The notes under the pieces: generated by a model | Database searches by the model: none | What the model was told of the DNA's origin: nothing | The model's input: only the letters and a program-made list of their open reading frames with translations | Made by a program: the position numbers and the translations under genes | Shown: piece by piece, positions 7,301 to 62,500 of the stretch | Numbering within the stretch: position 1 is the stretch's first letter | Layout of the letters: every line of letters begins with the position of its first letter | Assembly: GCA_944474755.1 (NCBI GenBank) | Contig: OX104112.1 | Coordinates: forward strand, 64,201,640-64,265,639 | DNA: 64,000 nucleotides | Direction of reading: 5' to 3' | Source: Limnoperna fortunei | Lineage: Eukaryota; Mollusca; Bivalvia; Mytilida; Modiolidae

Positions 7301-10300
7301 CCCAATGAAATAAATCATCAGATGGGTAAAAAACCCAATGAAGAAAATCATGTCTGAAGCTCTTAAGTATGTGTAACAAATCAGCAAATAACCTTATGTT
7401 GCTAATTTCTACAAATGTTATTTAAAAAACCCAAAAATATCTCATAAGAATTTTAAAAAGTAGACAAAAAAGATAATTGATTGGTTGTGTTCATCTGAAC
7501 AGTTTCAATCATCACTTTATTATTGGAAATTATACAACTGTCCATTTTATTATACCCCCGTTTCGAAGCTCGCTGTTGTCCATTCACCCGATCGTTCATT
7601 GGTCTGTCCATCCATCAGTCTAACCCTTTGTAACTAAAATTTCCATCACAGTTTTTGTTGCATCTATAGAATGCAGAATACTGATATTTATTGCTTTATC
7701 CTATATTACCATATGGTGTAAAGCAATTTCTTGCTTCTTGGTCATCTAATTCCTGTTTATCGAATACTTAAATTTTTACACATGCAAAATTGTTGGGAAA
7801 GCATGGGTATCACTAGTGAGCATTAGCTCACAGTCCACACTTGTATTTTCTGACTTAATTATACATGCTATTTCTGAATTCCTTGATTTAATATTTATTC
7901 AAAATTAATTTGTTTATTGGTTGTCTACTATTGATCATAGAGTCTGTCAACACTGAGGTTGTGGGTTTGAGTCTCACTGCAGCGCGATCTGCTCGACTCC
8001 ATTCTTAAATGACAAGCATTGCCAGTTTCCTACTGATTGTTGTGGATTTTCTTCAGTACTCCGGCTTCCTTCCCAATAAAAACTGGACGCCATGATATAC
8101 CTGAAAAATTGCAGACAGTGTCATTAAACATCATTCAAACAAACAAACCAATTAAACTACAAAACATTTACTGTCAGACTACAAGTGACTGCATTGCTCA
8201 ATTTGTATTTATACTCCCCCAAACTTGTTTGGGGGGTATATAGGAATCACCCTGTCTGTCCACATCACTTGTAAGCGCAACTTCTCCTAAACCTCTTGAT
8301 GAAATTTAATGAAACTTAGCATAAAGAAAACACATTATATGTAAATATGCATGAAGGATTTGTATTGACCTCGGATATCATTGAGGGGAGATAATTGGAC
8401 TTGAAAGCGAAGCAAGGGTGGGGGGTGGGTGGATATCCCTTTGTGAGCATGCTCACAGTCCACACTTGTTTACATTAAGCATAACTTACATGCATTACAA
8501 TAACACAGGACCAATTCAAGCAAAAAAGGAATTCTTGTTAATTTATTCTATTATACTTTAAGCCCTGAAAGCTACCCATCAAAAATATTATGCTATTGCT
8601 AAAGTCATCTCCTTATACATAAATAATCCTATGAGCAAATCTTATTATTAAGTGGCTATTAGCGAAGCAAGGGTGGGGGGTGGGTGGATATATCTTTGTG
8701 AGCATGCTCACAGTCCACACTTGTTCACATTAAGCATAACTTACATGCATTACAATAACACAGGACCAATTCAAGCAAAAAAGGAATTCTTGTTAATTTA
8801 TTCTATTATACTTTAAGCCCTGAAAGCTACCCATCAAAAATATTATGCTATTGCTAAAGTCATCTGCTTATACATAAATAATCCTATGAGCAAATCTTAT
8901 TATTAAGTGGCTATTGGCGAAGCAAGGGTGGGGGGTGGGTGGATATATCTTTGTGAGCATGCTCACAGTCCACACTTGTTTACATTAAGCATAACTTACA
9001 TGCATTACAATAACACAGGACCAATTCAAGCAAAAAAGGAATTCTTGTTAATTTATTCTATTATACTTTAAGCCCTGAAAACTACCCATTAAAAATATTA
9101 TGCTATTGCTAAAGTCAGCTGCTTATACATAAATAATCCTATGAGCAAATCTTATTATTAAGTGGCTATTGGCGTACAAAATATATATATTGCTGTGAAG
9201 TATCAAATTTATTTGTAGAAGGTATAAAAATTGAAGTGAGGATCATAGAATCTTTTCTCTCCAATTCATAGTGGGTGCAAATAAAATGGGATATTTTTGA
9301 CAATGTTCCTATGTTGTTACCTTGCAATGTTAGATGTACGGTGTTAAAATTGCTTATTTCTACTGTAAACAACAGAAAGAAAAGTACATCATTTGGATGC
9401 AGCCATGACGAGGACTCCAAGACTATGATTTAAACATTTGTCTTAATGTGTAAACTTGTTTACATTTAGTTTCAGGAGAAACATTTTGTGTCCCAGATTA
9501 TTTGTGTGTATGATGTTTAACGCCAACTTAAGCAATTTTTCAGCTATATCATGGTGTTCAGGTTTGATTGGGGGAGGAAGCTGTAGTACCCGGAGAAAAC
9601 CTAGACGTTCAGTAGGAAAATTGGCAATCCTTGTCAGTTAAGATTGGAGTTGAGTGCCCCCTGCCTGCAGTGAGACTCAAACCTGCAATCTTAGTGTTGA
9701 CAGACTGACCACATGATCAATATTAGATGAACTACCAGGACCACTCGGCCACTGAGGACCCTTGTGTACCAGATAAATAAACCAAAACATATTTTATATA
9801 CCTTTATAGTACTTCAATGTAATGATTGTAGTATAAAAGATTTTTTCCCATTGAGAAAATTACTTACTTTTTATACTAAAGATTACTTTGTTTTTAACTT
9901 CAAGGGTTTTAAATTTGGAGTATCAGGTACTGCTTCATGTTAAAACAATTTTTGTGATGCAATTATTATTAGAATAAAATTATTTCATTTTCATTTCATA
10001 AATTCATTATTATGAACAGTTGATGTGCAACAGCTTTTTTTTCAAAAGAATCATATTTATTTCATGAGAATGAACCGAAAATGGGGATGTTACCTGCAAT
10101 GTCTGGAGTAAACCAGACTTTCAAAACTTAATATTTTGAACTAATCATGTGCATCAGGTGTTGTTTTGCTTTTGGACCTAACAAGAATTTCTTCAAGCAT
10201 TTACCAGATACAGAAAAGGGGATGAATTTCTTCATATGGTTATATATAAATTTTTACAGATGAACTATGAATGAAATGTCGGAACATATGTCTGACAATT

Positions 10301-28385: not shown

Positions 28386-31300
28386 CTATTAATAAAATAT
28401 ATTAGCATTAAACTCGACTTGTCTAAGCTGAACATTGAATAATCAACCCTGTGTGCAACCTTAGTTAACAAAAACATAGTTCTGAGACTGAAATAACAAT
28501 AGCTGCAATGAATTATCTTAATTTATTTCATATCAGTAAAAAAAATTTTTTCAATTGGATAAAACAAGGTCAGCTGGTATTAATTAATCTGCAGTAATTC
28601 AACATGAGGGAATTACCATGCCATGATAACGCCTGTGAGCGTTACCACGTCGTGGTAATGCCCTCTCCAGTTACAAGCAACATGAAATTGTTTATTTTTA
28701 ATTTTTAAAAAAAAGATGCCCCCGCTAAGTCCCAAACAGGAAGTAAATGTCCGACAGGTCTGAAAGAAGGCTTAGGATGTACAACTTGTGATACTGAACC
28801 ACCCTGCCAAATTTCAAACTGTTCTCGTGTACGGTTTCTGAGAAAATCTTGACGGAAATTTGTATAGACTGACTTATGTACGGACGGACGGACATGAGTA
28901 AAACTTAATGCCCCCCCCCCCCCGACATGTCGTCGCGGGGGCATAAACAATATATGTACATGTACAACCTAAATGAGGAAAAAATTTCGTAAAGTTTAAA
29001 AAACTAACTGTGTATTGCCTTAAAATGGCTAAACAATGATATATCATGAGGCCCACAATCAAATCATAATGCAAGCAGCTGCAAATAAATAAAACAATCT
29101 TAAACACATGGTTTCTTAATTCTTCAATAAAATAAATATGTAGCTGGCATTGTCATGTACTTGACAGCACTCAGGACAGTGGTATTGCCTTTAACATTGA
29201 TAATGCCCTCGCCTTTGGCTCAGGCATTTTCAATGTTTCAGGCAATGCCACTCTCCCTTTTGCAGTCAAGATATTATGACAATGCCCTCTATATAAGCAA
29301 CTATTGTATAAATATATCATACATATATAAGAAGATGTTAGACCTACAGCAAATATGTTTCATATGAACCTCTCTTTCAATCCCTGCAGTAGTAACCACA
29401 ATATATTTTTTATTACTAGCAGTCTTAACCCCTAGCTTGCTCCAGCCCCCTTTTTGTGGTGTCTGTTGTGCTCATTTTTCCTTGTTTTTAATGGTCATTC
29501 GAGTTTGTTTTAGATTTTTATTGTTGGACACATGTGTCTCTTTATCACTTCTTACTGTCATCTTCTTTTCTTATTGTTATTACATTTCAAAATCTTATCC
29601 TTACCATTTTTTAGATCTAAAAAGAAGACTCCTCCATCTGGTCCTCTAAGTTGAAACATATACACTGAGCCTATACTTCTAACCATAGACTCTGACATAA
29701 CAGTCTTCACCACACCTATAAACTCCCTGGGGGATGGTATATTATGCAGCAAGGCATCATCAACACCAGCTGCCCCAGTGTCTGGTAACAGAGTAACTGA
29801 TTCAGGCATCTTAGGTATTGCATTAGTGCTTGCATCTCCACCTGGAATATTTTTTTATTATTTACAGTGTGAATACAAAAGCAGATCAAAAGAAATATGA
29901 ATGCCATTTATATTATAATTTTTGCCTTCTTCACAACTTATAGATGTGCATCGGGAATCTAAAAAAGAAACAAGGCCCTAATAACAAAACTGACCTTAAA
30001 ATTAAAATTTGGTGCAAAAGGGAAAAGGGAATAGGAAATTAAATACATATCTCTATCAATACTCCACAATTGTCAGACTTTCACAGAAAAACTAAAACTA
30101 ACAAACAGAAACAAAATTATTAAATATGAAATCTTTTACATTTTTGAAACTAGCTTTATACCCAAATAAAAAAGACGCTATTTAGCACAGAGTGATTTCA
30201 TAGACAACAAAATAATTTGATACAAATCATACTTGCTGAAGCCTGTAAGAATGCAGAAGCTAACTGTTGGAATGTTTGTGGTAGTCCTGCTGGCATCCCA
30301 GAGTTACTCTCTGGTCTCTTTAATATCTTTATTGGTGAGCTGTTACAAAAAAAGAATATGCATTGCCTTAAAAGCTGAGTCATTAAATACTCTAAATTTC
30401 CACCTAACCAGAAATGGAAGTGAAGTGTCTTTAATAATCTTGACATGTGAACTCACCGAGAATCATTAGGATTTCTTACTGCTCTTAAAATCCTGGTAAT
30501 TTTTTAATACTACCTTAAAATCTTTGTGATTTTCATACCCCATAAAATTATTTAGAACTTACAGACTTAACAGAATATTGGTAACTTATAATGAATTTAA
30601 GACTCATAAAGAATCTATACCATTTTCAAATTGCATTTGAACCTCTGTGAGTTTCAAACTACTGGTTGTGAGATATTTAATCAAGAAAGTATACAAATAA
30701 AATCCATTTCTTAGATAAAAAAACAACAACAAATGGTGTTATATCAATGTAGATTATTGCCACAAATATAGAGCTGGTTGGTTCACCTGCTTGCCATCAG
30801 ATTTTTTGTTGTTGAAAGAGAATACAATAATAATGTCAAATCCTAACTATAATATCCTGAGAATTTAGACTCTCCGCTTCTAAATGTGTACGGATTACTT
30901 ACAGTCTTACTTCATGTATAAGAACTCCCCAGTCTTTACAAGTCTTGTTACTGCTTTCCTAAAAATAACAATAATTTTTATAAAATTCTTTGAATGGTTT
31001 ATTTATACAATATATATTTCTTAATAATATACATGAAACATATGTCTTTTGGAAGCCATAAGATTTATGACAAAAAACAATATTAATGAGCCTCAGGTAA
31101 TACATGTTAATATTCTAACATGGGGTCCTGTCTACTGAGCATCTGATACGATCACATCATGTTGACAAGGGAAATGTTGTATCATTATAAGTCAAATAAG
31201 TGTGTAGGGGCCTCCATGGCCAAGTGGTTAAGGTAGTTAGTCTATTATTGATCACACGGTCTGTCAACATTGAGGTTGTGGGTTCACTGTCTGCAAGCAA

Positions 31301-45576: not shown

Positions 45577-46077
45577 TAGCTACAATAATGTAGCTCGTTT
45601 TTTTGTTGATGGACCATCAAAAAAAAAAAAAATTGAAGAATGTGTCCATGGGACACGGATGCCCCCGCTAAAGTAAGTCCCAAACAGGAAGTAGTTGTCC
45701 GACAGGTCTGAAAGTCGCTTAGGACATACAACTTGTGATACTGAACAACCCTGCCAAATTTCAAATTGTTCTCATGTACGGTTTCTGAGAAAAGCTTGAC
45801 GGAAATTTGTACATACAGACGGACGTATTTACGTACAAATGAAGTCCCAAACAGGAAGTACTTGTCCGACAGGTCTGAAATTCGCTTAGGACGTACAACT
45901 TGTGATACTGAACCACTCTGCCAAATTTAAAATTGTTCTCATGTACGGTTTCTGAGAAAAGCTTGACGGAAATTTGTTCGGACGTACGTACGTACGGACG
46001 GACGGACATGAGTAAAACTTAATGCCCCCCGACATGTCGTCGCGGGGGCATAAAAAGGAGCTACATTATTGTAGCTA
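45577..46077. mobile_element. TIR element with 9-bp target duplication, carrying two 167-bp units
   Basis: Perfect 20-bp inverted ends TAGCTACAATAATGTAGCTC (45577-45596; inverse 46058-46077); each end is itself near-palindromic. GGGTTTAAT repeats outside (45568-45576, 46078-46086), a Mutator-sized 9-bp duplication. Inside is the ATGCCCCCGC...GCGGGGGCAT core with two units (AAACAGGAAGTA at 45682 and 45849, 167 apart), a GGAC tract and GAGTAAAACTTAATG. Confidence 0.9.
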
Positions 46078-50561: not shown

Positions 50562-53500
50562 GTAAAAAAAAAAAATAACATGTTGATGATTTGAAATGGT
50601 TTTTTTTTTACTTTATTTTCCCAATACACATACATGTATATATTTAATATTTTATTTAGTATTATACAGTATACATATAATGTGCCTCTTTCAGGACAAA
50701 GTATTCTGAACAGATCTATACCAACTTTGACTCAATTTCTTTCAAAATATGGGTGTAAAATATATAAGATTTGAACTCTTTGGAATAGAAAAATTGTGTC
50801 TGTCATTGTACATTGAAGAGAAACATATAACTTATATAGTTATCAACCAACTACATTAGTTAAGAAAGCAGGTGACAACAGGGAACTTTGGTATCAACGG
50901 AATTTTTTTCAATGCAAGTAGAGTGCATAGTTTTAAATTAGTAAGTTGACTCACATGTAAGGGGGAAATGGTATGTACAACTAGCATATTTTAAAGAATA
51001 TTGAGAAAAAAATCAATTAGTATATATAAGCATGACAGTTCCATCATGTTCAGTTAAATGAGTAACCTGAACTGCTACCGTTTTTGTTCTGCAAAGGACA
51101 ACTTGCAGAGACTTAAAATATGACTTGATTAGTGAAGTATTTGTCAGTTTTAACATTCTCCAAACTTACCTCTCTGACAACATTTTCAAACTCTATAGCA
51201 GCTTGATCTGAGCTAAACTGAGCTCTGAAGGTCCTTCTCACAGGTTCATCTGTTGAGAAATCTATTGGGGACCAATCACAGTCTTTCTTGTTTCTGAAAA
51301 AAAAGAACTTATATAAAAAAATTGAAGAATGTGTCCATGGGACACGGATGCCCCCGCTAAAGGAAGTCCCAAACAGGAAGTAGTTGTCCAACAGGTCTAA
51401 AGGTCGCTTAGGACATACAACTTGTGATACTTAACCACCCTGCCAAATTTCAAATTGTTCTAATGTACGGTTTCTGAGTAAAGCTTCATGGAAATTTTCA
51501 TACTCGTGTTGACACATTTTCAAATCGGCCCAGTTGAAAACAGGAAGTAGTTGTCCGACAGGTCTGAAAGTCACTTAGGACGTACAACTTGTGATACTGA
51601 ACTACCCTGCCAAATTTCAAATTGTTCTTGTGTACGGTTTCTGAGAAAAGCTTGACGGAAATTTTCATACTCATGTTAACACATTTGCATATCGGCCCAG
51701 TCGCAAACAGGAAGTAGTTGTCCGACAGGTCTGAAAGTCGCTTAGGACGTACAACAAGTGATACTGAACCACCCTGCCAAATTTCAAATTGTTCTTGTGT
51801 ACAGTTTCTGAGAAAAGCTTGATGGAAATTTTCATACTCGTGTTAACACATTTTCATATCGGCCCAGTCGCAACAGGAAGTAGTTGTCCGACAGGTCTGA
51901 AAGTCGCTTAGGACGTACAAATTGTGATACTGAACCACAATTCCAAATTTCAAATTGTTCTCATGTACGGTTTCTGAGAAAAGCTTGACAGAAATTTTCA
52001 TACTCATGTTAACACATTTTCATATCGGCCCAATCGCAAACAGGAAGTAGTTGTCCGACAGGTCTGAAAGTTGCTTAGGACGTACAACTTGTGATACTGA
52101 ACCACCCTGCCAAATTTCAAATTGTTTTCATGTACGGTTTCTGAGAAAAGCTTGACGGAAATTTTCATACTCATGTTAACACATTTTCATATCGGCCCAG
52201 TCACAAACAGGAAGTAGTTGTCCGACAGGTCTGAAAGTCTCTTAGGACGTACAACTTGTGATACTGAACCACCCTGCCAAATTTCAAATTGTTCTGATGT
52301 ACGGTTTGAGAAAAGCTTGACGGAAATTCATACGGACGTACAGACAGACGGACATGAGTAAACACCTATTCTCCGTTAATCTGTCATACTTGAAAAAAAT
52401 AAAGATAAATTCAAAAACATTTCAGAATGACATAAAACCGTTGCATTTTTAAGTTGGAAATCTGTAGAATGTGTGTGCAAAATTTTGCGACTCGGGCTTT
52501 CGTAGTTTAAAAAATACACATTCAAACGTAAACATACCCAGACAGATAATGTAATCTACGTTCTACGGATCACAATTTAATGTTTTACTAAATCTGAAAT
52601 GAAGTAGTGTACCGCAACTGGCCAAAGTGTGGGGTTAATAAGGCCAAACATGTTGAATTAACGCATAATCAAACTTTTAGCTTTTAATTCTAAACTAGAA
52701 AAAGATATAACATTTGAAACATAAACGGAAAAAATAGATTTATATGTACCTTCATATTCTCTATCAAACATTTGGAATTAAAAAAGAAACATGTTTAATA
52801 TACACATAGAATATGCCCTAACACATTTACATATGTATTGAGATTGAAAAACTCATACTAAATTATTTGTTAAGTAAGACAATATTTTTCAACATTTCTT
52901 GACAAAGAGGTAACGTAAATTACACAGAACTGTAACGTAGATTACAGCGTCATTTAATATACCTTTATTGTTTTATTAAGCCACACACGTGAAACTCATG
53001 GAAGATTTACTACAGGAAAGCTTAAATAAGCTTCAGTTATTCACTACATAATCATATGTGATGTGCATCTAGTCGATCAGGTAAAAGGGCTGACATTATA
53101 GAAAATGTTTTGGTTAAATACATAGAGAATTTTTCAAAACGTTCTTTTATCAAGATCTTTTTTTTCAATATCGTATGTGGTATTAAAGGTAAAGTGAAAA
53201 AATAATAACATTTTACGTTGTCAAAATGTCAACAAAAACAAAATTCGTAAGGAAAAGAACGGTAACGTAAATTACATAATTGAAAGGGTCATAACAAGCT
53301 ATTCACATTCCAAAATTTCAACTCAAACTTTCATTTAGAGTCGCTGAAAAAGTTATTTTATTTTCTCCTCCAATTACCACCCCTTCACTTTGTGAATTTT
53401 GTCTCTATTAGTGATATGTCATTGTCATTGATATGATAGCTCCTACCACTGCGACCAACAGGTTGCGGGACGGATATCTTGCATAATACGTCTACTGGAT

Positions 53501-56500
53501 TCACATAGATTATGTCAGGAGGTGAAGCCCACTTAAACAATAGTTTTGTGTCGTTGTTGGCTTTTGATGGACGAAGAAATGTAACTTCTAATTCCTTTTC
53601 AAAATCTATGTCAAGGATTTGTCCAATATACCAGTTGTCGTCGTACTTTACAACTATCCAATCGTTTATGGCAAAGCTTGAATCGTCGTTTCCGTTGTCG
53701 GTCTTTACTAAAGAGTTTTCATCTTCAAGTTCTGACGGTTCATTCTCTGAAACCTGGACAATGTTGTCATTTTCTTTTTCATTGGTTATTGTTTCACTTG
53801 TCTCTTTTCTACGAAGAAGATTTCCTTCACTGAAATCGTGCATATTTCCAGCTAGGCACTGATGACAATAGCAGGATGTTACACATGTCTTGATCTTTCC
53901 AGTTGAAACGGAGCCAGCTTGGTGAACTTGCATAGTACCTTTAACAGCCACAAGCTTCTTGTTAAACTCCGCAACTTCTAGTCTTGTAGTTTCAATTTCC
54001 TCTCCTGGAACAAAACGGTACAAAGCACTTTTGTGGAGACTTTGGACTTTCAGAAAATAATCATTTGCATCCTGGACAATTATTTTACCCTGCTTGATTG
54101 CTAAATCTGCAATTCTCTTTGATGTGCCACCCACTCCGTCACACGGCCCTTTGCCGTGTCCACATTCAAAATAATTCCAAATAGCCGGAACACCAAACAT
54201 ATTCTCGTGATCAGATATAACATAAAAGGCCGACTTGTTCCTGTATTGTGAACTTGGGCTGTCTGTCCAATAATGGACCATTTTAAGGTTTGGTAGAGTC
54301 TCTTTGATCTCATTTAATATCTTCCTCATAATTGTAAATACATGGCCAAAGTTATGTCCGAGATCATCTGACACATACACAAAATTCTTGTGAGATAGGA
54401 GGTTTCCATCACGGTAGTAAGCTACAACTGGGTGTAATGATACTGCTGAGCTGTTCCAATAAGCGCTTTGCACTTCATCAGCCGATATACAAGAGAAATT
54501 TTCTGCGAAATCCATTTGTAACATCACATGGCCCTCTGGAAGATTTTCTTTCAATTGATTAACGGCTGCATATTGGGTTTTAACCCTTTCAACATGAGCC
54601 TGAAATTCACATATTTGATCCTTTATCAAAGTTACGAATTCCTCTCTTTTCATCATCTTCTCAACGATAATGGTTCTTTTTTTCCCATTTGGCAGTTCTG
54701 TTTTCTTCCATTGAGAGAGGGAAATATCCCCATCTTTAAGCGATTCTAACACAGTGTCAACTGATGTGCTACCAAGTTGTCTAATGAACTCATCAGGGTT
54801 AGTAGGGACATTGGAGCCTGCAGTTTTCATTGATTTTAAGGCAAGAGCCATGTTTTGGTGACGCTGGCATAGGCACTTATTCCTACTTAAATATTTTGTA
54901 AGAGCAATATGCTTTGGTCGCATCGCACAAAATGTAGAAAAGTGAACATTACTTGACTTCTCTGCTTTGTATTTCAAGTGAAGAAACATCATACTGTCAT
55001 TTAGAACCCTCTTTTGTAAATAGCCTTTTTTGGTCTTAACTTTGTCGTTTTTTCCTGGTAAAACCCTACTATTGTCGTCTCTTTCAAGAAATGCCCTTAT
55101 CTCGTCTTGACGTTTTATGCGTCTAGCTGCATTTCTTGTTCTTTTTTTCACGCTGATCACTGTCTTGTTCTTCCTTATTAAACGATGTGATCGGATACCA
55201 GTCTTCTTACTCAGTGTGTTTTTGAGTTTATATTTCGTTAGCTTTGAACTTGAAAGCATATTGCAGATCACGGTCTTGCTTGCTTCGTCGCTTTTCTTGA
55301 ATAATGTTCCCATTTCTTCTGTAAGAACATTAACTAAAATCAACTTATCTGCTACAGTTTTGGGGATTTTACTTGGTGAAACTCCCTCTTCTCTCAATTC
55401 TTTGTATGTTCTCTTACGTGGTGTCATTGTCACCCCATGACAACCGTTCTCCTGTGCTTCTTTATCCTCTGTTTCTTTTTCAGTTCTGATGTCTGCATGG
55501 TGTTCTACTACATGAGATTCATCTTCTTTCTCCTGGTGGACTTCTGCTCTAACAACTATAGTGTTACTCTTTGTTTGAATATCCTTATTCTTTGACATCT
55601 TATGTGATAGACGTTCAAAACGTTTAGACATCGTCTTGAATTTTCTATTACTTTTCTCATTTTCTCTTTTAAGTCGTTCAATTTGGCGTTTGCATTTTGA
55701 TACTGCTCGACTGACCCTTTTCCTAGTTCTCTTCTTTGTGTCTAATAATGGGAGCTTTACTATTAGGGGTGTGGCCATTGCAGTGTCGGAACTAGAAGTT
55801 ATCTCAGGACACTGTTCTTGGTCGCTTGTACCCTGAACCGGAACATTTGCTGTATGTTCTTGTGCTTTCCTCTTCCTTTGTCTATGTTCTTGGACATTCT
55901 TTTTCACTTTTTTTCGTCTCTTCTCAAGGTCCCTTTTCGATAGTTCTTCTACTGGAACGTAGTACTTCTGAACCCTTTTTCTTTCTTTTTCAAGGTATTC
56001 TTCACCTTTTAGTTGCTTTTGTCGCTCCCTATACGCCTTTTGTTTCTCTGCTTTTGTCAGCGGCATTCTGAAATAAAGTTGTAAAAACTGTAAGCTACGT
56101 TACCAAAGTATGTAATCTACGTTACCATATATATCTCCAATTTTGGCTATGGCTTTGCAAAATTTCATATTGTAGCTGCTTTCATGACGATGATAGGACA
56201 TTGAAAAATAGAAATTACGAAAGATTCACCTTGAATTCATGTGACTCGAACTGGTGTATGTAAAAAATCTCCAAGTTTTTTTGTTTTGTGTAATCTACGT
56301 TACCAGTGGTTTGTATGCCATTTCTATTGAATTATCAGTACAAACGGAATTTCTGCGCATTAGATATGGACAACGATCATAAGACTATTTTCAGAAACAA
56401 AAACATCTTTCTGTCCTCAATTCTTAAGGCTGTGAGACACTGGTACATTTGAATGAAAAGTATAGAATGGAAATTGAACTTGAATGACCTTTACATGAAA

Positions 56501-59500
56501 CATAACACAGATCACGCATTTGTTTATTTTTCAGTGTTGTCACAATTATATACAGTTAATGTTAACATTCTTATAACTACTAGAAACGTACTTATTTATA
56601 ATTACCTTGTAAGAAAACCAGAAAAACCACTTTTTAAGATCTGCAAATTCAAATTTTTCCGCAAACAAAACTTTAAAATAACAGGAAATAAAACATGTAT
56701 TATAATATAGGAAACAACTTTCGAATGATACGACACAAAATCCGAATTTTTTCGTTGAAAACCAGATCGCGAGTACGTGAATTAATACATTCAGAACGTA
56801 GATTACGGAACGTAAATTACGGCAAGTAAGAAAAGAGCAATTATTTGTCTACTCTAGGCTTTAAAAACAATTTTAGGTAACTTTTTTTCTTCAGAGAGAT
56901 AAGTCACACCAGTGGTTAATATTGCATATGTAGGGAATCATTAATGACGTAGTTGTTGAAGGAACGTAGCTTACACTCTTAAAAAAACTACTTTATAGAA
57001 GAGCAGTTAACGCGTAATATTTTTTTTCTCTTATAAAGAAAGCATTTAGTTTATCCATATGGCATATTTTAATGATTGTATGATAATTTTAAGGGTAAAG
57101 CCCCAACATTTGAATCATTATATTCGAAAGTGATACGTGCTTTATCTCGTAGTAACGTAGCTTACGCAATTTTAGCGACACATTTGAAAATTATGTTACT
57201 TCTATTATTGTTGAAGGATTAAAACAAAATTTGGGAATATGAAACTTGAAGTATACCCTAGTGTTATGATACAATAAAATGTGTAATATTTTGCCGCAGT
57301 TTTATGTTTCTTGATTTTTAAATTACTATATCGCCTTGGCGACACGCTGTTTTTTATCAAAAGCCAGTCTTCTATGCTTTGCTATAAAAATATACACATC
57401 ATTGTGAGAACCGCATATCATTATAAATCTAGTTTAAGGTAAGTTTAAGCCAAAACAATTTTAAAATTAGACTAATCTGCAATATATTTCTCTACATTTG
57501 ATGGCGACACGTGTATAGGCAACAATGACGGATTAATGAAGAATAGGTGTAAAACTTAATGCCCCCCGACATGTCGTCGCGGGGGCATAAAAATAAGCCA
57601 CAATTATAAACTAGTATAAATGAACGAAGCCATGAAAAAATACTGTTTGAGTACTGATATTACACCTCTAATGAATAACATGTCCTTTGGAATCAAATGG
57701 TAAATCACATTCAGTAATTTTGGAAATCATGGATCCAGATACAATTATTTAAATTTCTGCTGGTAATTCGAATTTCATGGTTATAAAGTATCCTTAGTTG
57801 GTGATCCTTAAATTATCCTGCAAAGCTCAAGTAAAATTTAGAGATAACAGTATCAACCATTACAACATCAATAAGAATACTAACACTATAACTGCTGATT
57901 CTTTTGCTACCAAGTGGTTACAGACGATGGTTTTGTTGTCCAGCTCTACCATAATTCTTTGCCCGTTGACATCTTCATCATATAGTACCCTCAGATTTCC
58001 TAAACCAATAACCTAAGATAAGAAAAATAAAAAAACAAGTCTGAGGCACATTTAAGAATTACGGTAATTCTGTGGTTTCAAGGTCAACGCTCTAATTAAT
58101 GAGTTAGGTTTTATTCTTCACTGGTTCTCCTGTTATGTGATCTGAGGGCAGCCACAAAAAACTAATTCCCCATGAAATAAAGAGGATTTTACAGTTAACT
58201 TCAATTATCATCATGGAAATTACAAGTAATAGTTAAAAGTATATAAATGTTGGAAATCTCCTGAGGCAATGGTCACAATACATGTATGATACTAATGTTC
58301 ATGTAATGAAACTCTTTTCCAAACACTTCTCATGGGTTTTTCATAGCACTAGGGTATTTGCCATTTGGAATCTCTGTATATTTACTTTTTCACTGGAAAT
58401 CCCCTGACAATACCAAAATATTTGAGGATTTAAGCTGTGTACCATATCTGTCAAGAGGTATTTGTAAAAACTAACATTTTCATGCTAGATAAATTCATCT
58501 TGATTGGAGAGTAAGGAAATTTCTATAGCTGTTTAACCTTTATTTCTTTGCAATACCAAACAAAATGATAATTTTGTATCAATTTCAACGAGTAAACACT
58601 TAAAAAATATATTCAATTAGAGGAAAACCACCCATCACTGTCAACTGGAAAACAATTTTCAAAGTGATACCTTCCAGGTTTCCTCTTTGGTGAAAAATTT
58701 GATTCTTTTTTCAAATAATAGTTCTTCTTCTTCCTCTGTGCTGTAATTTTCATCATCTTCATCTTCTTCCCTCATTTCTTCTGTTGATTGTTGTGAAGTG
58801 ACAGTCATGGGTATCTTATCAGCATCTGTTACAATTACATTACAGACTTTATTATTGTTACAATAAAGCATGAGACACCCAGAACAGACAGTGTAATTTT
58901 CCTTTTTCCTAAAGTGTGCATTAAATTAATACCATATCCTTTTTCATGACACAGCACTACCTCTGGATATTATGTGTTTACAGAAGTCAAAGGATAAAAT
59001 ATATTTACAACAGGCTTAAGACATTCAATATTAACAAAAGTCACAGGACACCACAGATTTACAATAGGCTAAGGGAAACTTTTATTAACCCAGCACAAGA
59101 CACCATGTATTTACACTAGGATCAGGGCACCTGGTATATACCAGACCCAGGACACCATATATTTACAATAGGCTCAATTTGTATACTGAGGTAAACTCCA
59201 TAGTACTGTCCAGAAGCTGAGAAAAATGGTCAAGACAAAATATTATCAAAATAAAATATACGCCAATAATTTTCACAGGTCATATTCTTTGAAAGTTTTT
59301 CTTTTCAAATAACATTTATATAGGTAACAAATTACATTATTAATTGAAAAACCTCTCTTACCTCCCTTTTCTGATAAATTCTCTGGAGCTGATGATTTTC
59401 GTTGTCGCAATTCAACTTGACATTTATCTATTGTCTCTTTAAACTGATTAGCCAGATCTATAGTCTATTTCAAATAAAAAAACAACACTTTTCAATGAAA

Positions 59501-62500
59501 TTTCTTTCCAGCATGGTTTTAATACAAAAATCTTCAACAAGACATCTATATTTATTTACAAAATATTTCAGTTGGCATGTGGTCTATGTGTATCTACTAT
59601 GAATCAATTCCTTTCAACAAGCTATATTAAAGATACAAATGAATTGTTGCATATAAAATAGGCTAAATTCTCTTTACTTACCCAAACTCACCATAATTTT
59701 TAGTGGCATAGACAATTTTCTCCCCATCAGTTCATCACATTTCCTGTGGTTTTATTATTGTTTGTTAACTTGTACTCACCATGAATATACTAAAATACTG
59801 CCTGCTTGAAATAAAGCAACCCACAGACAATCATTCCATTTTTATAGCAGACCACATGAAACCTTTCCTGAGTATAAGCTGGTGTTGGTCAGGGTATTTA
59901 AACTTTTGGAAGATGAACTGTCCCATTGTTTGAATACAATACCTATTGTTCTCTCTGCAGTTTATTCAGTGGGTACTTTAAATCTGACAAGGAAAAGTCA
60001 ATCACTCATTGATTAATTTTCCTATGCCAAAAAGTAAACTCCCCAATGGTGAAAATACATGAAACTTCACAGATTGTAGGGGGGAAATGTTGTGCAATGC
60101 TGAACTATATTATATGCCATATTTATCATTAATATCATTTAGGACAAAAATGTCTATTGCTGAACTTTTTCAAAATTTTGCAATCTATTTGCTATGTATT
60201 CATATACTAGCAACATGTTTTAATGTCCAAAAAAAAATTTTGTTGTCCAATTCCAATTTAATTCTATTTCAATTTTTTATTCAAACCAATTATGTTATTA
60301 AAATTTGTATTTAACATTTTGGTTTGACCAACTAGTACATGTACTTAATAATGACCATGTTCATGTTTGGGGAGATCATGGGCATGATGTTATTAATTTT
60401 ATGTGTCATTATGTGAGGAACTGCCCCCATAGATTTGTGAAAAAATCTGAAAATGACAATAACTTTTTTTATTCTTTTTTTCAGACATTAAATTCTTAAT
60501 TGTAAAATTAGTAACAATAACTGAAAATTGACACTCAACAAGGGAGATAATTTTAATGAATATATCCAGTGTTCAAAAATTTTCACTGATTTTTCATGAG
60601 TTATTCCATCTAACACAGCATCACAAATTGCAGTTCTTGTGTGATCAAAAGTGAAATCGCTGTTTGATCTCAATATCTGTTTCATTATATGAAAGCAGTA
60701 TTCACATGTATTAAGTTGTGGGTGGTACAGTGGTTGATATATCAGGGTAACTCCTGCTGGTCTTAGCAAATAAGGCAAGTTAGTGTTTATTATATGTGAG
60801 TGATGGAAGGCCCAGTTATCCATAATAATTGTGTCACCAGGTACAAACAGGTTGCTGTCCATGTGCTAGTCTATCATTGTTGATATCAATAGCCTCAGCA
60901 AAAAAATTTAAAAGTTCCAATCTATTATATGGACCAACAATAATATTAAAATAGTCTACACCAAATCTTGAATGTAACAGATTAACTGTATAATTAGCAT
61001 TTGAAGCATATCTGTCATTCAAATGCTCTAGAACCTTTGACTGAACTGCCATAATCTCTATTCCCAGTAGTCTTTATAACACCACTTTCATCAAAAAATG
61101 TAAGGAACTTGGGTTTTTAATGCTTATAAATTCTACAAATTCATCAAATTGCAGATGGATATCATCTTTTTGAGTTTCTACAGGTAAAATGACACATTTT
61201 TTGTATGAATACCAGCTGCAGCTTATACTGCATATACTGTTTAAATAAAATATGGTTTTCTTCAGAATTCATTGACATCAAATTGTTACACTAATTATTT
61301 GGTCACCATTAATAATAATACAATTAAGTTTAGGCATATTTATTTTCATATGGAGTTTAGTTTTTTCCACATGAAAATTAATCAATCAATGATTGACTTC
61401 TCCTTGTCAGATTTAAAGTACCCACTGAATAAACTGCTGAGAGAACAATAGGTATTGTATTCAAACAATGGGACAGTTCATCTTCCAAAAGTTTAAATAC
61501 CCTGACCAACACCAGCTTATACTCAGGAAAGGTTTCATGTGGTTCGCTATAACAATAAAATTTATTCATGAACCCTCCCCTTTTTATACCAAACTTTGTT
61601 TCAAGGGAATAATGCACAAAATTTTGTAAAACACACCATACCTTAAATTTAACAGCTAGTTGCTCAATAACTGGTTCATTATCACTGAAGTCTTGTCCAA
61701 CCCAACACCATGATGTTTCTGATGTTGGCAGTGGTTTAAATGAGATTTCAGGTGTCAACCACTGATTACAAGCAATCTTTAGCACCTGTTCTCTTCTCAG
61801 AAGAAGTCTGTAACGTCCTATTGACAAATTAATGTATAATGTATTTGGGTCCATTTTGTCAGGTAAAAACATGATGATAATAATATTATACTTCAGAAAA
61901 CATTTATAGTAGTGGAAAATTTTATTTCAAATAATTAAAATGTCATAGAACTACTTATTTAGAAAACTATTCATATACACTTAAGCAAAAATTTTTTATG
62001 AAAATATCTTATTTTTTTTCAGCAACTGCAACCTTGATATTTGATATAATTTCCTCAAAATCGCTAGTCTTCTGATCCACCAGATATTGAAATATATCCC
62101 AAAGTGTTATTGAAATCAAATGCAAACTTGTGGACATCTTTTTTGGGTGTGAAAATTTCAAACATTTTCATGTCGAATGTAACCTTAACCTTTGACAGAG
62201 TTCCTTAAGCATCAATAGGCTTCTTACCCACCTGATATGTAACCATATCCCATAGTCACATTGAAGTCAGTAATCAAACTTAAAATTTTTGAAATCTTAA
62301 TTTGGATAGATGGACATGGGGATCCTTATATACCCCCTCCCAAACCTCTTGATGAGCAGGGCTATAAAAAGAAGCTAAAAGCTGATGGATGTCAAGACTA
62401 ATATTCCCAAATTGTATAAAAAATCTCACTATTTTCTTTATGTTGTAAAATTTTCATCTCTCCAAGTCCTTTCTCCTTCCATTGGTTTGCTTCTTTATCA

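Follow-up and report, generated by a model that had tools for sequence, protein, structure and literature searches.

A recently inserted DNA transposon in the genome of Limnoperna fortunei, its close copies and its probable relation to the Sola superfamily

The element and its copies in the genome

The stretch of Limnoperna fortunei DNA analysed here (64,000 nucleotides of contig OX104112.1, assembly GCA_944474755.1, hereafter the window) contains a segment of 5,187 bp with inverted ends and one long open reading frame (ORF). This raises the question of whether the segment is a complete and recent transposon and, if so, of which kind. The initial annotation had proposed a recently inserted DNA transposon, and had named beforehand as grounds for rejection that no other copies existed, or that they showed other borders or no 4-bp duplication. 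Five further copies were found, with the same borders and with 4-bp duplications, and these sequence comparisons support the conclusion that the element is a complete, recently inserted DNA transposon.

In the window, the terminal sequences CACCTATTCT are identical at 10/10 positions, at 22/25 over 25 bases and at 25/31 over 31, so that alignment of the ends bore out the borders, the 22/25 match and the flanking TAAA described initially (Table 1). In 20 simulated 64-kb sequences, no end pair reached 10/10 and 22/25 together with a 4-bp duplication. Eight end pairs do so in the real window, but at least four of these belong to a different feature, a long inverted repeat at 59.8-61.6 kb. Ends of the form ACACC..GGTGT with a 2-bp AA duplication fitted the window copy alone equally well and were ruled out by the other five copies: the base preceding CACC across the six is a, a, c, a, t and a and, because it differs among copies, the duplication is of 4 bp and not of 2 bp.

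The insertion interrupts a short host repeat, in which tandem units of about 167 bp lie between inverted ends ATGCCCCCGC...GCGGGGGCAT. The junction 22-mer ACATGAGTAAAACTTAATGCCC, with a single TAAA, is present exactly at two other places in the window, confirming the proposal that the uninterrupted repeat is preserved there twice, and 100 shuffles gave no match to it, even with three mismatches. Three copies of the repeat were located in the window (51348-57588, with the transposon inside, 45659-46051 and 28716-28944); we take it as possible that the repeat is a satellite-carrying non-autonomous element of a kind known in bivalves. Nothing resembling the transposon was detected elsewhere in the window by blastn (E 1e-3).

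The assembly (1,335 Mb) was searched with the window protein, and 51 of the 1,275 candidates were scored, so that the counts are lower bounds. At least 79 match rows were obtained at E 0.001 or better. Eight of these, at six loci, correspond to the family of the window element (97-100%) and the remaining 71 to related families (31-61%), many of these 71 being fragments of a single locus. The six family copies (window and L031-L035), all read at both ends, measure 5,173-5,302 bp and are pairwise 99.52-99.83% identical. Their target duplications are TAAA, CATA, TTGC/TCGC, TATA, TTGT and GTAA, five of them exact and one matching at 3/4. Decay of a CpG was considered as the source of the mismatch in TTGC/TCGC, at L032, and rejected, the paralogous empty site there being TTGC. 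The terminal bases are identical in all copies save L034, in which GGT replaces the first CAC; its TTGT duplication is perfect, and the change is confined to the outermost three bases.

Among the six copies there are 51 variable sites, and since just one is common to two or more copies, the copy tree is a star; the differences are private to each copy, which indicates a recent burst. Queries of 500 bp from each end of the element recovered the six copies, that from the left end adding one old relative (69%), and the family is therefore young and of low copy number. Both the identity of 99.5-99.8% and the private substitutions agree with the recent insertion initially claimed. Weak support for youth also comes from the CpG observed/expected ratio of the non-coding part of the element, which with motifs masked is 0.99 (mean outside 0.42; 3 of 107 outside windows reach 0.99). 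The 893-codon frame is open in the window copy, L031 and L032, and is broken by indels in L033, L034 and L035. The suggestion that the element is possibly active is permitted by the three intact frames, which make the family a candidate active element.

Single-unit paralogues of the uninterrupted site were identified within the fetched loci of L031 (39/40), L032 (34/40), L033 (33/40) and L035 (33/40), with none for L034, and with four bases doubled or removed they matched at 26/40 at most. At L031 and L032 the paralogue has the duplicated four letters unchanged, and at L033 and L035 it has others. Such paralogues (33/40 or better) lie 82 bp to 1.2 kb away in the flanks of four of the five fetched copies, against a background of 59/583 flank 40-mers of the five loci and 20/260 random window positions. 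The insertion site in the window has its nearest paralogue at a distance of 6.3 kb and none within 2.3 kb, and no nearby direct paralogue accompanies any of three insertions of the sister families described below. As the 33/40 threshold was chosen after the data had been seen, we make no claim of a preference for locally repeated DNA.

The transposase and its affinity

The ORF of 893 amino acids (aa), the longer of the two ORFs of at least 150 aa listed for the window, is free of stops, as had been stated initially, and lies on the minus strand (53385-56066). Models, fold matching and conservation predict an integrase/transposase fold in its core, with conserved D519, D602 and D643. The last of these is retained in 158/158 filled alignment rows. 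E634 was considered as the third catalytic residue and rejected because the proteins of an outer group of relatives (the 'HGKGACDG' proteins, 120 listed of 597 matches) have A, G or S at that position. Both conservation and model therefore favour a triad of three aspartates (DDD) over DDE in this lineage. A Tudor/SH3-like domain may be placed at residues about 800-880, where the model has strands (803-870); the assignment comes from one Foldseek row without query range (3qii, root mean square deviation 2.1, TM by target 0.77, E 0.37).

Searches of Pfam and NCBIfam with the window protein gave no informative family match, and a scan of 32 members gave 18 scattered Pfam families, none in more than two members, the best being Ribosomal_S7 in one member (E 0.00058). 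Sequence searches of PDB were likewise uninformative (influenza HA2 at E 0.25 or worse), a profile search of PDB gave a weak match to PEX14 over the N-terminal part (E 0.008), and Foldseek against viral models gave no match at E 0.001 or better. Neither relatives nor the end sequence were found in viral and prokaryotic contig collections, an absence that says little because these collections hold viruses and prokaryotes. The nearest named relatives are Mytilus proteins, which makes a mussel host likely, although transposons can move between species. One protein tree was built from 56 of the 65 rows, and P0049 stands on a very long branch in it. Three relatives (P0012, P0027, P0155) are listed under bacterial Sedimenticola metagenome-assembled genomes and are probably host DNA in symbiont bins.

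The family lies most likely in or beside the Sola superfamily, and actual membership, judged against Sola by description only, is somewhat favoured. The source name of one outer-group relative is 'Cc8L18.2-like', which traces to a Cotesia bracovirus gene. Sola2 elements are reported as abundant in the wasp Cotesia congregata (PMC7822920, in the text excerpted), and as a pointer to Sola this coincidence of name and abundance is a hint only. According to the extract of PMC10741241, Sola elements encode a DDD transposase, duplicate 4 bp of the target, carry inverted ends of 11-1124 bp and are 2-9 kb long; the window element, with its DDD triad, 4-bp duplication, 25-bp inverted ends and 5,187 bp, falls within these ranges. 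It might be argued that the lineage is a separate DDD superfamily and not Sola, since none of the relatives that these searches retrieved bears the name of a transposon family and the nearest name, 'Cc8L18.2-like', belongs to the outer group. However, triad, duplication, inverted ends and length all fit Sola as extracted from the same source, and we regard a separate superfamily as rather unlikely.

Subterminal sites and related families

The motif GTAAWYTACGTT has 11 matches in the window (eight exact and three with one mismatch), all of them within the non-coding parts of the element, whereas 1.6 were expected and the maximum in 100 shuffles was six. A weight matrix, built from the same 11 sites that it scores, gave them values of 20.4-25.3, and the next best site in the window reached 9.6. 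Their orientations (+ - - - before the ORF and + + + - - - - after it) form a mirror arrangement about the ORF, on either side of which there is a pair of sites spaced by 22 bp (52912/52934 and 56090/56112). The count of identical 9-mers in the window element, five, equals the largest of 100 shuffles and does not exceed it because the sites vary; the significance of the sites rests on the 11 matches against 1.6 expected and at most six in the shuffles.

A total of 24 distinct insertions was examined (the window and 23 related ones, a fetched subset of those in the genome; 2 of the 26 table rows are repeat reads, and 15 of 40 loci were omitted as copies of the window family or overlaps with kept loci). 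In 16 of them, 4-11 copies of TACGTTA lie outside the longest frame, and the left half of the word is family-specific (GTAATcTACGTTACC, GTAATTTACGTTAT, GTAtTTTACGTTAT, GTGAATTACGTTAC, ATATTTACGTTACC or GATACATACGTTACc). A single change accounts for presence of the word on the inner tree, which has 24 rows for 22 distinct insertions, omits L010 and L016 for their short ORFs, contains two duplicate pairs and has several long branches flagged. For ACGTTAC, some shuffles reach three copies; L009, L010 and L026 score 0-1 with it, because they carry TACGTTAT, and 4-7 with TACGTTA, the latter counts being without shuffle control.

Two sister families were read at their ends. F2 (L037 and L038; 37% transposase identity) measures 5,116-5,117 bp and has ends CATTCAAAATCAGT (24/25) and duplications ACCT and ATAA. 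F3 (L040; 34% transposase identity) measures 5,103 bp, has ends CAGTCATTCTC and duplication ATTA, and lacks the TACGTTA word; one of its two insertions was counted, since the right end of the second copy, L039, was not recognisable. The three families read have in common a 4-bp duplication and CA...TG ends. As the sister families begin CATTC and CAGTC, a CAC start is not a rule of the lineage. A non-autonomous element of 1,993 bp with matching ends was also found (C5:63758626-63760618, flanks AAAA/AATA), with five sites inside and no transposase match row there in the protein search of the assembly. Altogether both ends were read in ten insertions (six of the window family, three sister, one non-autonomous), eight with exact 4-bp duplications and two matching at 3/4.

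These observations suggest that the motif is a binding site of the transposase, and several points weigh against this. Eight of the 24 insertions hold zero or one TACGTTA, and the seven of them included in the tree group in a single clade (100/99). At four other loci that show a matching end (L055, L058, L059, L060), the 1.5 kb on the inner side contains no site. Two sites adjoin the start codon upstream, and the binding role is read from sequence. The motif could then be a host transcription-factor or replication motif, or a product of chance. Nevertheless, all 11 window sites fall inside the element, variants of the word recur in 16/24 insertions with a single change on the tree, and the 1,993-bp element has all five of its sites in its interior, none lying outside it in either of the two loci where it occurs, so we consider a host motif or chance unlikely. 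L052 and L054, which also have a matching end, contain three sites each on the inner side. In the families without the word, the best 9-mer counts stay at or below the maximum of 100 shuffles; one of their members, L030, has four GTTACGGAAGTTAA in its flanks in a single orientation, a count not above shuffles.

Proposed mechanism and other features of the window

The element is very probably an autonomous cut-and-paste DNA transposon with a DDD transposase that has spread recently in this genome, as judged from its sequence and copies. Cut-and-paste is preferred because the ends are fixed, the 4-bp duplication varies and one frame has a predicted integrase-like core. The transposase would bind the inverted ends as well as the 11 subterminal sites mirrored about the ORF, bring both ends together, cut the element out and join it at a new site with a 4-bp stagger, which repair would fill. 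The transposase may also regulate its own gene through the two sites that immediately precede the start codon. It is conceivable, although doubtful, that the lineage is an animal DDD superfamily of its own, whose transposase reads a multi-copy mirrored word with a fixed TACGTTA half and a left half co-varying with the transposase; if true, it would be a natural record of a transposase and its binding site evolving together. With six near-identical copies, several beside paralogous empty sites, and with the sister families, the ends, the target mark and the candidate binding words are readable, and whether transposase and subterminal sites diverge together can be directly tested.

Two other features of the window were noted. 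The inverted repeat 59833-60042 / 61352-61561 has 210-nt arms, 93% complementary and 1.3 kb apart, and overlaps an ORF of 164 aa (61378-61872). Three tandem units of 255 bp, 98% identical, lie at 8406-9174.

Table 1. Positions in the window of the element, its parts and the uninterrupted host repeats
Feature	Position	Strand	Basis
Complete transposon, 5,187 bp	52363..57549	.	inverted ends and five further copies with identical borders
Left target-site duplication TAAA	52359..52362	+	sequence, comparison of copies
Right target-site duplication TAAA	57550..57553	+	sequence, comparison of copies
Left terminal inverted repeat	52363..52387	+	22/25 to right end; genome-wide pattern search
Right terminal inverted repeat	57525..57549	-	22/25 to left end; genome-wide pattern search
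Paralogous empty site in intact host repeat, single TAAA	28892..28913	+	exact 22-mer match
Paralogous empty site in intact host repeat, single TAAA	46006..46027	+	exact 22-mer match
Transposase ORF, 893 aa, intact	53385..56066	-	ORF list; homologues
Predicted catalytic core of RNase H/integrase fold (residues 500-682)	54021..54569	-	models, fold match, conservation
D519 codon	54510-54512	-	conservation and model
D602 codon	54261-54263	-	conservation and model
D643 codon	54138-54140	-	conservation and model
Possible Tudor/SH3-like domain at the C-terminus, weakly assigned (residues about 800-880)	53427..53669	-	model strands 803-870
Subterminal site GTAATCTACGTT	52551..52562	+	motif search, weight matrix
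Subterminal site GTAATTTACGTT	52912..52923	-	motif search, weight matrix
Subterminal site GTAATCTACGTT	52934..52945	-	motif search, weight matrix
Subterminal site GTAATTTACGTT	53264..53275	-	motif search, weight matrix
Subterminal site GTAAGCTACGTT, 24 bp upstream of ATG	56090..56101	+	motif search, weight matrix
Subterminal site GTAATCTACGTT, 46 bp upstream of ATG	56112..56123	+	motif search, weight matrix
Subterminal site GTAATCTACGTT	56290..56301	+	motif search, weight matrix
Subterminal site GTAATCTACGTT	56795..56806	-	motif search, weight matrix
Subterminal site GTAATTTACGTT	56809..56820	-	motif search, weight matrix
Subterminal site GTAAGCTACGTT	56963..56974	-	motif search, weight matrix
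Subterminal site GTAAGCTACGTT	57154..57165	-	motif search, weight matrix

Comparison with known systems

Assignment of the same element to the Chapaev/CACTA (CMC, EnSpm) superfamily, whose marks are CAC...GTG ends, target duplications of 3-4 bp, subterminal repeats and a transposase of DDE type, was also considered. The window element does have CAC...GTG ends and a 4-bp duplication, and subterminal repeats are typical of CACTA elements. Pfam contains CACTA transposase models, yet the window protein has no Pfam match. Chapaev elements share the CAC...GTG ends with a 4-bp duplication (PMC4079192, in the portion available), but the third conserved acid here is D643 and not E, in 158/158 filled rows, and the 5'-CAC/GTG-3' termini of the window element are absent from the two sister families with related transposases, which start otherwise. 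This assignment is accordingly quite improbable. Domestication of the transposon as a host gene, with old borders, would agree with the intact, stop-free frame of the ORF. It is practically discounted by the six dispersed and nearly identical copies, which have 4-bp duplications and of which three are broken, unlike a single-copy domesticated gene.

Kolobok and KolobokP elements also occur in bivalves and have a DDD/E transposase and a 4-bp duplication, but their ends are RR...YY and their duplication is TTAA (PMC9587614, as excerpted), whereas the window element has CA...TG ends and its family duplicates TAAA, CATA, TATA, TTGT, GTAA and others. Long terminal direct repeats of the KolobokP type were not seen in the element, none exceeding 34 bp among the 20 largest of 30 repeat families. 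The uncharacterised outer-group proteins (spider, rotifer, hagfish, limpet; for example P0129, P0080, P0146, P0168) have the same three aspartates, a D2-D3 spacing mostly of 40 and a C-x-C-x-x-H motif ahead of the core, as in the window lineage. They differ in having A, G or S where the window protein has E634, and in the YRER-type N-terminus (0/120 listed of 597, against 35/49 in the inner group) and the CYCxxC motif (0/120 of the same listed proteins, against 30/49).

The initial annotation had spoken of an undescribed system. The family is indeed unnamed in the libraries searched, and a limited literature search found no published description of it; its kind, however, appears to be a known one, namely cut-and-paste and probably Sola. 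Sola1 and Sola2 have been reported from bivalves, Sola1 with a mean length of 5,445 bp (PMC10294476, in the passages available). On sequence grounds, the element would belong to a known kind as a new family, one in which ends, target and probable binding sites are recorded with unusual clarity.

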